Source: an uncultured Stenotrophomonas sp.
Lineage (GTDB): Bacteria > Pseudomonadota > Gammaproteobacteria > Xanthomonadales > Xanthomonadaceae
Assembly: GCA_913775725.1 (NCBI GenBank)
Contig: CAJYNG010000004.1
Span: 26,162 to 90,161 of the forward strand
Reading direction: 5' to 3'
Length of the DNA stretch: 64,000 nucleotides
The position numbers were made by a program, and so were the translations under genes. Below are positions 41,510 through 46,708 of the stretch, piece by piece. The notes beneath the pieces were generated by a model. That model was not told where the DNA came from. It did no database searches and was given only the letters and a program-made list of their open reading frames with translations. Each line of letters opens with the position of its first letter. Position 1 is the first letter of the stretch.

Positions 41510-42685
41510 TCAGCCCGCGCGGTCTTCAAGGTTCCAGATCGTGCCTGCAGGGTCCAGCTCGGTCGTGGTCATGGTCGCGGCGCGCCAGCCGAAGCCGCAC
41601 ACAGCGAGCACGCCATCGGTGGCAGGATCCAAGGAAAGGGCACGCTCGATTGCTTTCTCGTTGATTGCCGCAGTAATGAACGCACCCAGGCCATCGTCGG
41701 TCGCGGCCAGATACAGTGTCTGGGACAGATGACCCGCCTCAAGGGCGATGACGCGGTAGCTTTTCGCGTGCTGGCGATACTTCCAGAATGTACGGTCGAA
41801 GCGCGGCGCCAGGATCACCAGCACGTGCGCATCGGCAAACCAGTGCTGCTGGCCCACAACATCCATCACGAAGTGACGGTCCACCTCGCTGTCCGAGGCC
41901 ACCGGCTCCAGCACATGGGTATCGCCGCGATAGTGGTACAGGCCCGCCGGCAGCCCTTCGACGTGCTGCACCACCAGATAGGCCTCGATGGGATGCAGCC
42001 CACCACCGGAGGGCACGTTCTTCTTCATGAACACCAGGTCCTCGCCGACACGGTGTTCTCCGGTACTGCCGAAGGTCCGCTGCAACATCCGCGCCAGCAT
42101 CGGCAACGGCAGCGGCCGCTGCCAGTCGAAGTTGCGACAGGTTGCGCGACGGGCCAGCAGCGTGTCGAAGGCTGCCGGCTCGGCCCTGGGCAGCGCAATG
42201 GCGCCTTCGCTGCAACGAGACACCGTGGTCGCAGGCGGCGCTCCCAGTGTTTCACGCATCTGCACGGCCGTCTCGGTCCTGGACGCGCGCATGTTGCCGA
42301 CGGCATCCACCCCATCCCAGCGCGAGAATGCGTGCAGCACGGCAGCAAGCGGGTGCCAGTAGGTCGAGCGCAATGCCTCGTCGGCAATCGACGCTGCATC
42401 CGTCGCGCTGCCCTGGACAAACACCAGCCCTGCCTGCTGCAGGGGCGACACCATGCCCGCCTCCTCGCTGTCCACCGCGACCTCCTGCCATGCGCTGGGG
42501 CTGAGCCGACCCAGCCAGGCCTGCTGCCTGGCGTCCAGTTCGACCGGTTCGGGCAAGTGCGGCGCGAGCGCGAGCCAGGCTTGCCTGCGACGAAGCCCAT
42601 CACCGCCCTGCATCAGGCCCTGCAGGTCGAACGTTGCCGTTTCCCGCAGCTCCATCATCAGTACCGAACAGCGCCTGACCTGCAT
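41510..42685 (-). CDS. SagB-like FMN dehydrogenase of a RiPP cassette (putative peptide maturation dehydrogenase)
   Basis: 391 residues from the ATG at 42685, chosen for its AAAGGA box six bases upstream. The N-terminal 170 residues have no clear motif; they may bind the precursor. The C-terminal half is a nitroreductase fold of SagB type: RRATCRNFDWQRPLPL (about residue 188), KKNVPSGGGLHPIEAYLVVQ with flavin-contact residues, GLYHYRGDTHVLEPV and ALEAGHLSQTLYLAATDDG. SagB enzymes oxidise azolines to azoles in RiPPs; here no cyclodehydratase is present. I recall NCBIfam TIGR04511 for this Xanthomonad group. Divergent from the precursor gene; convergent with liuD. Confidence 0.85.
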   Translation of the reverse strand: MQVRRCSVLMMELRETATFDLQGLMQGGDGLRRRQAWLALAPHLPEPVELDARQQAWLGRLSPSAWQEVAVDSEEAGMVSPLQQAGLVFVQGSATDAASIADEALRSTYWHPLAAVLHAFSRWDGVDAVGNMRASRTETAVQMRETLGAPPATTVSRCSEGAIALPRAEPAAFDTLLARRATCRNFDWQRPLPLPMLARMLQRTFGSTGEHRVGEDLVFMKKNVPSGGGLHPIEAYLVVQHVEGLPAGLYHYRGDTHVLEPVASDSEVDRHFVMDVVGQQHWFADAHVLVILAPRFDRTFWKYRQHAKSYRVIALEAGHLSQTLYLAATDDGLGAFITAAINEKAIERALSLDPATDGVLAVCGFGWRAATMTTTELDPAGTIWNLEDRAG

Positions 42686-42818
42686 GTTCTTTCCTTTGGA
42701 TATTCCTGCCACGTTATCGAGCGATACCGCGATTCCTTGATGGCAGCGCGGCAGTCACTCAAGAAGCGCTCCTCTGCGCCGACATCAAGGTTCCATACCG
42801 ACGTTTCCGGACCCCACC

Positions 42819-43130
42819 ATGCCCACCCTGCAGCTGGAACCTGCCGTCGCGCAGAATCTTGTGAACCTGCTCGCCACCGATGACGCATTCCGCGGCCGCT
42901 TCACCCAGTCGCCGGAGGCGGCGTTGCTGGAAGCCGGCCACGTTCCTGCAGATCCGGCCGAGCTGAGCCAGTTCGTCGCCATGTGCTGTGCCTCCATCGC
43001 GCTGGCGGACAAAGCCGTCATCGAGCAGGCACACGCGCAGATCGTCGCAATGCTGTCCAGTGGAACGGCCTACACCGTGCCGATGCTCGAGAACGGCAAC
43101 ACAGGTAATTCCCCGCGTACGCTCCGCTGA
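42819..43130 (+). CDS. RiPP precursor peptide with NHLP-like leader (putative modified peptide)
   Basis: 103 residues. Residues 10-77 follow the nitrile-hydratase-like leader pattern (VAQNLVNLLATDDAFRGRF, SPEAALLEAGH) but with a Cys pair at 56-57 inside. The likely core is residues 78-103, rich in Ser, Thr, Asn and Gly (SSGTAYTVPMLENGNTGN) with one Tyr and no Cys. No double-glycine cleavage site stands out. I recall family TIGR04509 for such Xanthomonad peptides. The gene is divergent from the dehydrogenase (133 bp gap) and its stop is seven bases from that of the convergent cyclase-like gene. Confidence 0.82.
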   Translation: MPTLQLEPAVAQNLVNLLATDDAFRGRFTQSPEAALLEAGHVPADPAELSQFVAMCCASIALADKAVIEQAHAQIVAMLSSGTAYTVPMLENGNTGNSPRTLR

Positions 43131-43137
43131 GAACCGC

Positions 43138-45642
43138 TCACCCTTCGGGCCTGGTCTCCGCTGCGGGCAAAGGCCGGGCAGCCTCGCGCACATCCAGCAC
43201 GTTCATCGCCTGCAGGCAGTAGCTGCATTCGATCTCCGCGTACGCAAGGCCGGGGTTGGAGGCCAGCCAACGCTTCTGGTCGAGCATCTGGGCATCCAAG
43301 CCCGCATCGCGGGCCGCCTTCATCGCCGCGACCCGCGATTGCACCCGCGAGCGAGCCCCCAGATAGGGTTCGAGCAGCTGGAGTGCCTGCAGCGGTTTAC
43401 CTGATGCGCGCAGCCTCTCCGCGCCCAGCACAGCATCGAATTCGCGGATGACGGCGCTTTCCGGCTTTCTCTGCAACGAAGCCCAGCGACGCTCGACCTG
43501 CCTGGCGTAGCGGGCGTCCCCCATGCGCAACCCTACAAGTGCCGCGGCCTGGGCGGTGACGATACGATCAACGGCATCGACCACGGGAACCGATTCGATG
43601 CCTTCGAATGTCCGGTGGATCGCCTCATCCAGCAGCGGCCCGACGCTTGAATGCTGGCCCGCCTGCAATCGCGCGACGGCCAGGGGAACATAGAAGTTGA
43701 AGCGGTCAACACCGGGCATGGCGTAGCTCCGCTTCATGCCGCGCTCGGCATTCCACAGTGCGGCCTGGATGTCACCCTTGTCCAGCTGGACGGAAATGCG
43801 GATGTTGTCGGCGTGATAGTCGCTGGCGTCGATCTTCTGCAACAAGCCCAGGGACCGTGCCAGGTCGCCTCGCGCCGCTGCAACGGTCGCCTGTCGCATC
43901 AGTGCTCCCTGCCAGCCGCTGGCCGCTGCAACGGAAAGCGCGCGGTCTGCTTCATCGAACCGCCCCATTGCCAGCAGGATGCGGCCGTACTGATCCTGGC
44001 CAACGCCCAATAGATCGACCTGGCTCATCGCAACGCGTTGCGCCAGCGGCAGTGCTTCGCTGAAGCGGTTCTCGCAATAGAGGCTGATCGCAGCATTGTT
44101 CGCAGCCGGCAGATAGTCCGGATACAACTCAGCCATCTGCATCCATCCATCGGTTGCGCGGTCCGGGTCGCCCAGATGAAGGGTCCAGTTGCGCACGTAG
44201 AGCGCTTCACGTGTGGTCAGATGCCGGGACCATCGCTGTGCCTTCTTCAACACGCTGGCGGCACGGGAGAAATCCGCATCCGCGAAATGGCTGCGAGTCT
44301 GTCCCAGCCATGCCAGTGCGAATTCTGGATCGATTTCCGTGGCCTGCTGGTAGAACGCCAATGCTCCCTTGTAGTCACCGCGCACGTAGCGCTTCTGGCC
44401 CAAGGCAAACGCACGCAGCGCATCCATGCTGCCCGTGGTCACCTCTGGCAGGGATTGGCTGTCGCGCTGGATCAGTGCAGGCTCTTCGCCGAGGCGATCA
44501 CGCAGCTGGCGCGAAACATCGTCCACCGCCGCCAGTACGGCACCCGCCTTCGCATCGGCAGATACCACGGCCAGGGTGCGCAGCGTCGACGGCTCGATCA
44601 CCTCCACGCTGAAGCGGGTGCGGCCGCCGACATCGGTAGCCGATGGCACGAACACCAGGCGGGCGCCCGTGCGCACCGCTACAGCGGCGGCATCGCCGCG
44701 TTCGCGGACGCCGCCATCCAGTGGTTTCCGCATCATCTCAAGGGTGCGGCCGACGCGGTCATCACTGACGACGTTGACGTAGCGGGACTGTTCGAGACTG
44801 ATCCGGAACGCCTGGTCCAGGGCGTCATCGAGCAGGTGATTGCCGGTGAGGTTATGCAGCCCGCCGAGCACCACCCAGTCGCGTTCGGCGAACGCGATGG
44901 CCGGCTGCGGCCGGGTCAGCAACCAGACGCCAAGCACAGCGGCCAGCAACACGGCGGCCTGCGCCGCCATCGCCAGCGGACGGCGCCACAACGGCAGATC
45001 ACGCCGGGCCTTGGCCGTGTGCCGCAGCCGTCCCGGCGTGGGCATGCCCGCCGCCTGCACGCCGTAGACTTCGGCCGGCTGGCTCACGCCCTTGAAGCGC
45101 CAGCGCCCGAACGATCGCCATTGCAGGCCTTCGGCCATCGCGCCCAGCGATCCGCTGGAGCGGCGCACGATGGATTCGGCCACCGCCGAAAGCAGGATCT
45201 GGCCCGGTCGCGCCAGCTGCATCAAGCGCGCAGCCGTCGGCTTGGCCAGGCCTTCGACTTCAATCGCCTTGGCGCCAGCCCGCACTGCCTCGGCGCTGTT
45301 CTCCCAGGTGAGCACATCGCCCAAATGCAGACCGGCCCGGGCCTGCAGATGGATCTCGTGCCTCTGCCCCAGCGGCTGCAACCCACGCTGGTAATCCAAG
45401 GCAAAGCCGAGCGCGTCGATCGGGCGCTCGAACAGCATGAACAAGCCATCAGAACGGTCGATCAACTGGCCGTTCCAGCGCTGCTGCAGCGCCAGCACCA
45501 GCCGGTCGTGTTCCTGGAACAGTTCGGCGGCAGCGACATCGCCGATGCGTTCGACCAGCAGCAGCGAGTCACACAGGTCGGTGAACAGCAGCGCGCGCAG
45601 TTGCTGGTTGTGCGGCGTCGACGTTCCGTTGTCGCCATTCAT
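43138..45642 (-). CDS. Class III cyclase-like / TPR membrane protein of the RiPP cassette
   Basis: 834 residues from the ATG at 45642 (GGGAG box upstream). Residues 14-180 are a class III nucleotide cyclase homology domain: FTDLCDSLLLVERIGD with a metal Asp and DRSDGLFMLFE with the second; the base/ribose motif usually reading VNxAAR is LAKPTAARL, so activity is doubtful. A membrane helix lies at about 225-245 (AMAAQAAVLLAAVLGVWLL). The rest is a periplasmic FlgO-like part and TPR-like helices (about 400-800), ending in CSYC. I recall TIGR04510, the peptide modification system cyclase, for this type. Transcribed together with the GGDEF gene (16-bp gap). Confidence 0.85.
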   Translation of the reverse strand: MNGDNGTSTPHNQQLRALLFTDLCDSLLLVERIGDVAAAELFQEHDRLVLALQQRWNGQLIDRSDGLFMLFERPIDALGFALDYQRGLQPLGQRHEIHLQARAGLHLGDVLTWENSAEAVRAGAKAIEVEGLAKPTAARLMQLARPGQILLSAVAESIVRRSSGSLGAMAEGLQWRSFGRWRFKGVSQPAEVYGVQAAGMPTPGRLRHTAKARRDLPLWRRPLAMAAQAAVLLAAVLGVWLLTRPQPAIAFAERDWVVLGGLHNLTGNHLLDDALDQAFRISLEQSRYVNVVSDDRVGRTLEMMRKPLDGGVRERGDAAAVAVRTGARLVFVPSATDVGGRTRFSVEVIEPSTLRTLAVVSADAKAGAVLAAVDDVSRQLRDRLGEEPALIQRDSQSLPEVTTGSMDALRAFALGQKRYVRGDYKGALAFYQQATEIDPEFALAWLGQTRSHFADADFSRAASVLKKAQRWSRHLTTREALYVRNWTLHLGDPDRATDGWMQMAELYPDYLPAANNAAISLYCENRFSEALPLAQRVAMSQVDLLGVGQDQYGRILLAMGRFDEADRALSVAAASGWQGALMRQATVAAARGDLARSLGLLQKIDASDYHADNIRISVQLDKGDIQAALWNAERGMKRSYAMPGVDRFNFYVPLAVARLQAGQHSSVGPLLDEAIHRTFEGIESVPVVDAVDRIVTAQAAALVGLRMGDARYARQVERRWASLQRKPESAVIREFDAVLGAERLRASGKPLQALQLLEPYLGARSRVQSRVAAMKAARDAGLDAQMLDQKRWLASNPGLAYAEIECSYCLQAMNVLDVREAARPLPAAETRPEG

Positions 45643-45658
45643 CGCCTGACTCTCCCGA

Positions 45659-46708
45659 TCAAGGTGTATCCGCTGCATCCACCCAGCGCAGGCAGTTGCC
45701 GCCATCGCGCTTGGCCTGGTACAGCGCACGATCCGCACAGGCATACCACTCGCTCCAGCCTGCCTCCGGCGCCAGCAGACTGGCACCGATGCTGACCAGG
45801 CTGACATGCGGCGTGCCATGACTGCGTTCGAGCAGGCCATGCACCGCGCTGAGGATGAACTCGGCCGCGTGCTGCACGATCTCGTGATTGCCACGGCGCA
45901 GGATCAGGCAGAACTCATCGCCGCCGAGGCGGCAGGCCAGGTCCTGCTCACCGGCCATCGAGCGCAGGATGTTGCCCATGCTCTGCAGCACACGGTCGCC
46001 GGCCTGGTGGCCGTGACGATCATTGATCTGCTTGAAGCGGTCGCAGTCGATCAGCAGCAGGGCCTGCGGCAACCCGTCACCGTCGGCGCGGCACTCCTGC
46101 AGGTACAGGGTCAGGCCACGGCGGTTGTGCAGCCCGGTCAGTTCATCGGTACGCACCAGCTCACGGGTGTGGGTCAGCTGATGGGTGGTGATGTACAGAT
46201 TGTCCAGCGCGGTTTCCAGATCATGGTTGCGCCGACGCAGCTGGCTGATCAGGGCCTGCTCGTTGGTCAGCACGCGCATGATCGTGCGCCGCAGGAAGTA
46301 GGCGACCAGGCCGGGATCGGATTCCACCAGGCGATGGAAATCGGCCGGGCCCAGCTCAAGCACCTCGCAGTCGACCAGCGCGCGGGCACTGGCGCTGCGC
46401 AGGTGGTCGCCGACCAGCAGGCCAAGCTCACCGAAGAACTCATGCTGGCCGAGGGTCTTGATCACCAGGTCTTCGCCGAAGTCCAGTTCGATCTGGCCTT
46501 CGAGGATCACGTACATCCGTTCGCCGCGATGGCCACGCTGGAACAACCACTGTCCGGCATGAAGCTTGCATGGACGGGCAAATCTGGCGAACAATGCCAC
46601 CTCGGCAGCGGAAAGCAGCGCGTGCACGATCTCGGCCATCGCCACCCGGGCGATACCTGTCGTCACATCACTGTTCTCGGCCGCACCCCTGCCGGTCATT
46701 CCCTGCAC
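45659..46708 (-). CDS. Diguanylate cyclase with cyclic-nucleotide-binding domain
   Basis: 349 residues from a GTG at 46708; ATGs at 46699 and 46639 (MAEIVHALL) are alternatives, and the last sits directly before conserved sequence. A cyclic-nucleotide-binding domain fills residues 35-150 (GQWLFQRGHRGERMYVILEG, FFGELGLLVGDHLRSASARA), followed by a coiled stretch and a GGDEF domain (about 195-345; TDELTGLHNRRGL, CDRFKQINDRHGHQAGD, RLGGDEF intact). The product-inhibition site lacks its Arg (GEQD instead of RxxD). It should make cyclic di-GMP, perhaps under control of cAMP/cGMP-like ligand, and it lies just upstream of the cyclase-like gene. Confidence 0.9.
   Translation of the reverse strand: MQGMTGRGAAENSDVTTGIARVAMAEIVHALLSAAEVALFARFARPCKLHAGQWLFQRGHRGERMYVILEGQIELDFGEDLVIKTLGQHEFFGELGLLVGDHLRSASARALVDCEVLELGPADFHRLVESDPGLVAYFLRRTIMRVLTNEQALISQLRRRNHDLETALDNLYITTHQLTHTRELVRTDELTGLHNRRGLTLYLQECRADGDGLPQALLLIDCDRFKQINDRHGHQAGDRVLQSMGNILRSMAGEQDLACRLGGDEFCLILRRGNHEIVQHAAEFILSAVHGLLERSHGTPHVSLVSIGASLLAPEAGWSEWYACADRALYQAKRDGGNCLRWVDAADTP

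Follow-up and report, generated by a model that had tools for sequence, protein, structure and literature searches.

Four adjacent genes in a 64,000-nucleotide stretch of DNA from an uncultured Stenotrophomonas sp. (GCA_913775725.1, contig CAJYNG010000004.1, positions 26,162 to 90,161; the whole stretch is called the window here) encode a precursor peptide, a SagB-type flavin mononucleotide (FMN) dehydrogenase, a membrane nucleotide cyclase with a tetratricopeptide repeat (TPR) domain, and a protein that combines a cyclic nucleotide-binding (CNB) domain with a GGDEF domain (Table 1). On balance, we lean towards the view that they form one peptide-to-cyclic-GMP (cGMP) signaling unit with pherotype-like alleles, because the peptide, enzyme, and sensor covary while the neighboring output domain, effector, and flanks are conserved; a peptide acting as the input of the cGMP pathway would be the simplest account. 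This reading draws on the association of the genes across genomes, the counterparts XC_0249 and XC_0250 of Xanthomonas campestris, conserved ligand- and metal-binding residues, sharp-bordered divergence between relatives, and covariation. The preliminary description had placed the parts correctly and read them as a peptide-making cassette without a ring-forming enzyme, linked to nucleotide signaling. The trio of peptide, dehydrogenase, and cyclase and its nucleotide link stood, but the evidence favors a signaling locus over a peptide-making cassette because the locus holds a nucleotide cyclase, the counterpart of a cGMP effector, and a covarying peptide, enzyme, and sensor.

The three family models named in that description were exactly the right ones. 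The precursor scored 105.1 bits against TIGR04509 (cut-off 34), the cyclase/TPR protein 1109.9 bits against TIGR04510 (cut-off 400), and the dehydrogenase 548 bits against TIGR04511 (cut-off 240), so that all three window proteins lie far above the curated cut-offs of this putative peptide modification system. The titles of the models refer to peptide maturation and to a "cyclase"; they mention no nucleotide cyclase and leave the fourth gene out. Among 149 evenly drawn genomes of the family, all three genes were found in 93, none in 53, and a part in three (G054, the cyclase; G126, where the peptide was not found; and G130, a 48-bit dehydrogenase match only). This distribution exceeds chance, and the lack of co-occurrence that the preliminary description had named as refuting was not seen. 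Counted singly, the dehydrogenase was matched in 95 genomes (91 above the cut-off), the peptide in 93, and the cyclase in 95 (93 above the cut-off, and in pieces in G011 and G120). The strand pattern of the window recurred in 77 of the 86 loci that combine a single dehydrogenase gene with a single cyclase gene and one or more peptide genes.

The CNB-GGDEF gene belongs to the same association as the trio. A homolog (E value of 1e-40 or better) accompanied the dehydrogenase in 87 of 95 genomes and was present in 6 of the 54 genomes without it (Fisher p 7e-24, a value that ignores kinship), and in 79 of 88 loci, representing 32 genera, the gene lay no more than 600 bp from the cyclase gene on the same strand. 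Ten genera include genomes both with and without the dehydrogenase. In eight of these (g3, g4, g5, g6, g17, g18, g46, and g51), a dehydrogenase-free member also lacked the CNB-GGDEF gene, and all dehydrogenase-bearing members had it except G130, with its 48-bit match; in g11 and g23, the dehydrogenase-free member retained a homolog. This pattern counts against kinship as the whole cause of the association. We also rejected the idea that the CNB-GGDEF gene is merely a core-genome neighbor of the isocitrate lyase gene aceA, which flanks the locus, because it tracks the trio and is missing beside aceA in most of the 20 regions taken from dehydrogenase-free genomes: 15 had aceA and none of the four genes, L190, L191, L193, and L194 had only CNB-GGDEF of the four, and L192 had the cyclase and CNB-GGDEF genes without aceA. 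The link to nucleotide signaling is thus a genetic association across genera and not an accident of neighborhood.

The association extends beyond the family. At the order level, the dehydrogenase exceeded the cut-off in 57 of 250 genomes. At the 14 loci outside the family (all the listed order-level matches above the cut-off there), a peptide gene was nearby in all 14 (in L217 at only 27.5 bits), the cyclase in 13, CNB-GGDEF (E value of 1e-30) in nine, and all four genes in nine. Two of the five loci without CNB-GGDEF (L214 and L219) reach a contig end, and the nine four-gene loci span four families besides that of the window. The four-gene unit therefore occurs in five families of the order, and the dehydrogenase gene is near-universal in the genus of the window (90 of 91 genomes). 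One locus (L220) carries two peptide–dehydrogenase–cyclase sets and a single CNB-GGDEF gene.

The peptide, the dehydrogenase, and the TPR half of the cyclase differ strongly between close relatives whose flanks are 90–97% identical at the DNA level. Between the window and locus L097 of the same genus (genome G071), DNA identity was 96% in aceA, 94% in the malate synthase-like gene beyond it, which we take to be aceB, 97% in the CNB-GGDEF gene, and 93–95% in the carboxylase genes, versus 42% in the peptide gene, 59% in the dehydrogenase gene, and, along the cyclase gene, 77% in the cyclase domain, 59% in residues 201–400, and 51% in the TPR part. Identity falls from the stop codon of the dehydrogenase gene onward and recovers close to where the cyclase gene starts. 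L103 and L147 resembled L097 in their divergence from the window. In comparisons with L183 (S. maltophilia PC315, 93–95% identical in the genes around the locus) and L184, the cyclase gene kept 88–90% identity to residue 400, and the drop began in the TPRs. The loci L162, L163, L182, and L185 and the Xanthomonas loci L186 and L188 were more distant from the window, in their flanks too. Within the Xanthomonas group, the cyclases of L148 and L186 were identical at residues 1–200 and 70% identical past residue 200, falling to 15–28% at residues 561–760; in 40-residue steps from residue 401, identity was 15–47%. This allelic variation of the TIGR04509–04511 system is a finding of the present analysis.

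The same contrast was apparent when pairs of loci were compared. Among ten Stenotrophomonas loci, 22 of 45 pairs had at least 93% aceA identity, and in 19 of these 22 the dehydrogenases were <70% identical; in the Xanthomonas group, the corresponding numbers were 13 of 15 pairs and 12 of 13. The aceA proteins of the window, L103, L147, and L183 were 100% identical (rounded), yet these loci fell into four dehydrogenase groups. In a dehydrogenase tree of 66 rows from a quick search, the ten Stenotrophomonas rows were split over three places and the six Xanthomonas rows over four, and trees with one clade per genus were rejected (p 0.0075 and 6e-8). In the aceA tree, the Xanthomonas rows lay on one side of a branch, which was unsupported, and a Stenotrophomonas clade minus L162 was not rejected (p 0.72). 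The tree program flagged L163 for the length of its branch; L149 and L174 were flagged because their composition is unusual. Genera thus appear to share divergent alleles.

The variable parts covary. Among 100 annotated loci, 56 combined aceA with a single dehydrogenase, a single full cyclase, and a single peptide gene, and 43 of the 56 had every part; for these 43, we compared distances between parts after correction for the aceA, aceB, and CNB-GGDEF distances, taking the peptide after residue 45. Peptide distances correlated with those of the TPR part (0.58; none of 1,000 permutations as high; 43 loci) and of both dehydrogenase halves (0.60). The correlation was 0.21 with cyclase residues 255–400 (7 of 1,000 permutations) and 0.01 with the cyclase domain (411 of 1,000 permutations as high). 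The leader behaved similarly, correlating at 0.46 with the rest of the peptide and at 0.45 with the TPR part.

The output side of the locus resembles a published cGMP pathway. In X. campestris, XC_0250, a cyclase joined to TPRs, was reported to convert GTP to cGMP and to have no activity on ATP, and the linked XC_0249, with CNB and GGDEF domains, to bind cGMP (dissociation constant, KD, 0.293 uM), after which more cyclic di-GMP (c-di-GMP) is made; mutants in XC_0249 or XC_0250 showed lowered virulence and altered or reduced biofilm (PMC3770947). That paper also noted adjacent homologs of the two genes in Stenotrophomonas maltophilia. The arrangement in the window is the same, with a cyclase–TPR gene beside a CNB-GGDEF gene. 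The CNB-GGDEF protein matched both Pfam domains above their cut-offs (GGDEF, 129.5 bits; cNMP_binding, 69.3 bits), and all five tested cGMP-binding residues of XC_0249 (F73, E90, H98, N145, and E146) are retained, as F77, E94, H102, N149, and E150. In 87 aligned homologs (an 88th was gapped and left out of the residue counts), the equivalents of F73, E90, H98, and E146 were invariant, that of N145 was N in 74, S in seven, and G in six, and the GGDEF motif was present in all. The Xanthomonas euvesicatoria protein at this site matched PDB chain 5h5o across 129 residues (2.1e-73); 5h5o carries the residues named in PMC3770947 at an offset of 22, and the structure code that the paper gives is 4KG1. 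The gene-association and divergence conclusions are independent of PMC3770947, whereas the cGMP part depends on it. Some other papers from the group that published PMC3770947 have reportedly been retracted or corrected since; a search for a notice, whose results were taken up by unrelated notices, showed none. XC_0249 or XC_0250 is also named in PMC8042644, a 2019 review that describes the TPR part of XC_0250 as of "uncharacterized function", and in PMC6341742 and PMC3749722. Because XC_0249 was reported in PMC3749722 to bind RpfG of the diffusible signal factor (DSF) pathway, two cell–cell signals could meet in the CNB-GGDEF protein.

By sequence comparison, the TIGR04510 "cyclase" is a nucleotide cyclase and the probable counterpart of XC_0250. 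Its N-terminal part matched the class III cyclase Ma1120 (2.9e-13). In this alignment, D22 and D65 occupy the positions of the metal-binding aspartates, and the lysine that specifies adenine falls on a gap; both aspartates were invariant in 36 sequences. The structure model (mean pLDDT 89.1, pTM 0.64) placed one hydrophobic helix (residues 222–243) after the cyclase domain, followed by a small alpha/beta region and then by TPR helices up to residue 822. The catalytic part must be cytoplasmic, which would put the TPR part in the periplasm. The correspondence with XC_0250 is suggested by architecture, by the neighboring gene, and by six residues at an offset of 6: D41, D71, L73, A150, L157, and A161 of XC_0250 fit D35, D65, L67, A144, L151, and A155 of the window protein. 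The first metal-binding aspartate is D22 by the Ma1120 alignment, whereas the D41 of PMC3770947 fits D35. The published D41 assignment may deserve a second look because the alignment points to D22 and not to D35.

In the signaling reading, the SagB-type dehydrogenase would mature the leader-bearing peptide, which would then leave the cytoplasm through a route encoded elsewhere and bind the membrane guanylate cyclase at its TPR domain in the periplasm. Binding would control how fast the cyclase domain, in the cytoplasm, converts GTP to cGMP, presumably by activation and not by inhibition; cGMP would bind the CNB domain of the neighboring protein, and its GGDEF domain would make more c-di-GMP. 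The peptide, the maturation enzyme, and the sensor domain would be co-adapted alleles (pherotypes) swapped as a block, with the catalytic domain, the effector, and the flanks more constant than the exchanged block.

Several results weigh against such a unit. Linkage or block recombination could cause part or all of the covariation without any binding, because the TPR end of the cyclase gene adjoins the peptide and dehydrogenase genes; the correlation declines along the cyclase gene (0.58, 0.21, 0.01), as linkage predicts, and the leader, for which no ligand role is needed, also covaries. Linkage by itself does not explain the high divergence of the block relative to its flanks. Variation within species is the hallmark of pherotypes, and each species is represented by one genome in the collections used. 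Neither an exporter nor an export signal was evident in the locus, and the NHLP exporter-peptidase model TIGR03796 exceeded its cut-off in none of the 149 family genomes; sub-cut-off matches to this broad family occurred in every genome, the best in the genome of the window scoring 464.1 bits. Nine of the 88 loci lacked an adjacent CNB-GGDEF gene (L118, at a contig edge, L129, L135, L157, L159, L167, L168, L172, and L176), five of the 87 CNB-GGDEF matches hold an in-frame stop (G014, G051, G063, G081, and G139), and some cassette copies look broken (G011 and G027). The XC_0250 cyclase domain by itself was reported to restore biofilm formation (PMC3770947), and therefore the sensor half is dispensable for activity. 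The peptide, as a candidate input, and the dehydrogenase are additions of the window unit to that pathway, and the main text of PMC3770947 makes no mention of a peptide, a dehydrogenase, a nitroreductase, an operon, or XC_0251. Finally, YcaO is mostly absent, and 13 of 123 unique precursors are without any cysteine.

Some of these points would be accommodated if the small protein stayed inside the cell, perhaps unmodified, and acted with the flavoprotein on the cyclase, for example as a redox sensor and adaptor; fast evolution of a linked block, or its recombination, would then account for the divergence with no need for ligand–receptor matching. No export signal or dedicated exporter was found, the gradient of correlation fits linkage, and the leader covaries like the rest of the peptide. 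We nevertheless consider this unlikely, as the catalytic domain, which would be the contact site in the cytoplasm, shows no covariation with the peptide and is better conserved than any other part.

It is also improbable that the locus makes a bacteriocin-like competition peptide that the dehydrogenase tailors, with the TPR part providing immunity or self-recognition and the nucleotides regulating production. The leader relationship captured by TIGR04509, the kinship of the dehydrogenase with enzymes of toxic peptides such as microcin B17, the strong divergence of the peptide and TPR part, and the multiple peptide genes at some loci (tandem copies in L135 and arrays in L157 and L159) are in line with it. 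However, no exporter gene recurred beside the trio among the gene clusters common to most loci, and the variable domain forms a single protein with a nucleotide cyclase. Typical bacteriocin clusters are not near-universal at a fixed chromosomal place, whereas this dehydrogenase is found at such a place in all but one of the genomes of the genus. Anti-phage defense through cyclic nucleotides, in which phage escape would drive the variable parts, seems very improbable: the CNB domain weakly resembles four CNB-bearing defense models in PADLOC (best, 33.5 bits) and some parts are highly divergent, but the cyclase, peptide, and dehydrogenase had no PADLOC match, the locus is fixed in place and near-universal in the genus, and XC_0249 was reported as a regulator of biofilm and virulence (PMC3770947).

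The dehydrogenase also exceeded the cut-off of the SagB family model TIGR03605 (127.1 bits; cut-off 78.4). Its C-terminal part is a nitroreductase domain, whose PDB relatives include the double nitroreductase 3eo7 and the azoline oxidases CyaGox, BmdC, and McbC; the N-terminal ~150 residues had no match in Pfam or, by sequence, in PDB, and the structure model scored a pLDDT of 93.8. W301, K302, and Y303 were invariant across 56 sequences, and the KY pair has a catalytic role in SagB-type dehydrogenases. The preliminary description had noted that no YcaO cyclodehydratase is present, and this holds beyond the window for its whole genome, as well as for 86 of the 95 dehydrogenase-bearing family genomes, which rules out a YcaO elsewhere in these genomes as an azoline source. 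A YcaO match was found in 11 of the 149 family genomes, nine of them dehydrogenase-bearing, and in these nine it was not near the trio but on other contigs or, in G138, >0.5 Mb away on the same contig. Because YcaO is mostly absent and some precursors lack cysteine, the dehydrogenase probably does not oxidize YcaO-made azolines in most of these bacteria; we suggest, with low confidence, that it directly oxidizes a residue in the C-terminal part of the peptide. An ordinary azole peptide system with a cyclodehydratase acting in trans from elsewhere, which the motif shared with azoline oxidases would suit, is largely refuted by the same absences and is most implausible. Two contigs, G015:C3 and G062:C1, hold a further weak match to SagB at a distance of ~10 kb from YcaO genes; it is probably part of an ordinary azole peptide cluster unrelated to the locus.

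The family name, the NHLP-like leader, and the intact SagB-type motif make the product a candidate ribosomally synthesized and post-translationally modified peptide (RiPP). The precursor scored 27.4 bits against the NHLP-clan model NF038399, below its cut-off of 40; its conserved positions are L14, L18, R25, G40, and K65, and it is free of cysteine over the last 45 residues. The number of peptide genes varies: L135 (G040) has five similar precursor genes in tandem by one dehydrogenase and one cyclase gene, and L157 (G067) and L159 (G022), of one genus, have arrays of several dissimilar peptide and dehydrogenase genes. In the latter two genomes, the CNB-GGDEF homolog is located elsewhere.

Among known systems, a similar pattern is seen in peptide pherotype systems such as agr of Staphylococcus and comQXPA of Bacillus, in which the peptide, the processing enzyme, and the sensor half covary and the output half and flanks are conserved. 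The window locus shares the block divergence of peptide, enzyme, and sensor beside conserved flanks and output, but the receptor in agr and comQXPA is a histidine kinase, whereas a guanylate cyclase and a cascade from cGMP to c-di-GMP are proposed here; moreover, the host is Gram-negative and the enzyme is a SagB-type dehydrogenase. The thiazole/oxazole-modified microcin (TOMM) and other azol(in)e clusters with SagB, McbC, or CyaGox share the dehydrogenase family and a common motif with it, but not the genome without YcaO or the cysteine-free end of the precursor, and NHLP/Nif11 RiPP systems differ in having a dedicated exporter.

The trio (in NCBIfam) and the cyclase/effector pair (in PMC3770947) were each known; by joining them, the pathway gains a candidate input and the peptide family a candidate role. 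In the open-licence literature searched, TIGR04509 is named nowhere, no title or opening of an abstract was found to link the peptide family with the cGMP pathway, and "peptide maturation dehydrogenase" occurs in one paper, where it refers to SagB beside ATP-grasp genes. More tentatively, the locus could be a bacterial counterpart of receptor guanylate cyclases, with a gene-encoded, enzyme-matured peptide pheromone sensed at the membrane by a cyclase, cGMP relayed to c-di-GMP, and specificity groups that cross genera. If true, bacteria would have a peptide-to-cGMP signaling route with specificity groups, in a widespread order that counts plant pathogens and an opportunistic human pathogen among its members.

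Table 1. Positions of the features of the locus, counted from the first letter of the window
Feature	Position	Strand	Basis
SagB-type FMN dehydrogenase (TIGR04511)	41510..42685	-	Profile match; open reading frame (ORF) 41510-42712, likelier ATG at 42685
FWKY motif	dehydrogenase residues 300-303	-	Sequence
Intergenic region from which the dehydrogenase and precursor genes diverge	42686..42818	.	ORF layout
Precursor peptide, 103 amino acids, NHLP-related leader (TIGR04509)	42819..43130	+	Profile match
Membrane nucleotide cyclase with TPR domain (TIGR04510), probable counterpart of XC_0250	43138..45642 (from ATG)	-	Profile match
Class III cyclase domain, residues 1-200, metal-binding D22 and D65	45043..45642	-	Ma1120 match
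Single hydrophobic helix, residues 222-243, putatively transmembrane	44914..44979	-	Predicted model, sequence
TPR domain, residues 406-822, hypervariable, putative periplasmic sensor	43177..44427	-	Pfam, model, divergence
CNB-GGDEF protein, counterpart of the cGMP effector XC_0249	45659..46708	-	Pfam
High-divergence block: dehydrogenase, peptide, most of the cyclase gene; right border varies by pair	41510..45500	.	DNA identity between close relatives

The cyclase and peptide genes are convergent and the peptide and dehydrogenase genes divergent, and the locus is flanked by a biotin carboxylase gene at one side and by aceA at the other. No convincing common motif was found in 70 intergenic regions between the dehydrogenase and peptide genes; CRP/Clp-like sites occurred in nine of the 70, against one to five in five shuffles, which was unconvincing. 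In L189 (Xanthomonas phaseoli), the peptide, dehydrogenase, and cyclase matches are split among several reading frames, and the locus looks broken. Secreted-looking small proteins with several cysteines were encoded near the dehydrogenase in 38 copies at 18 loci of nine genera (e.g., L093:10705-13130 and L095:7023-8799), and such genes also adjoin aceA in some cassette-free genomes.

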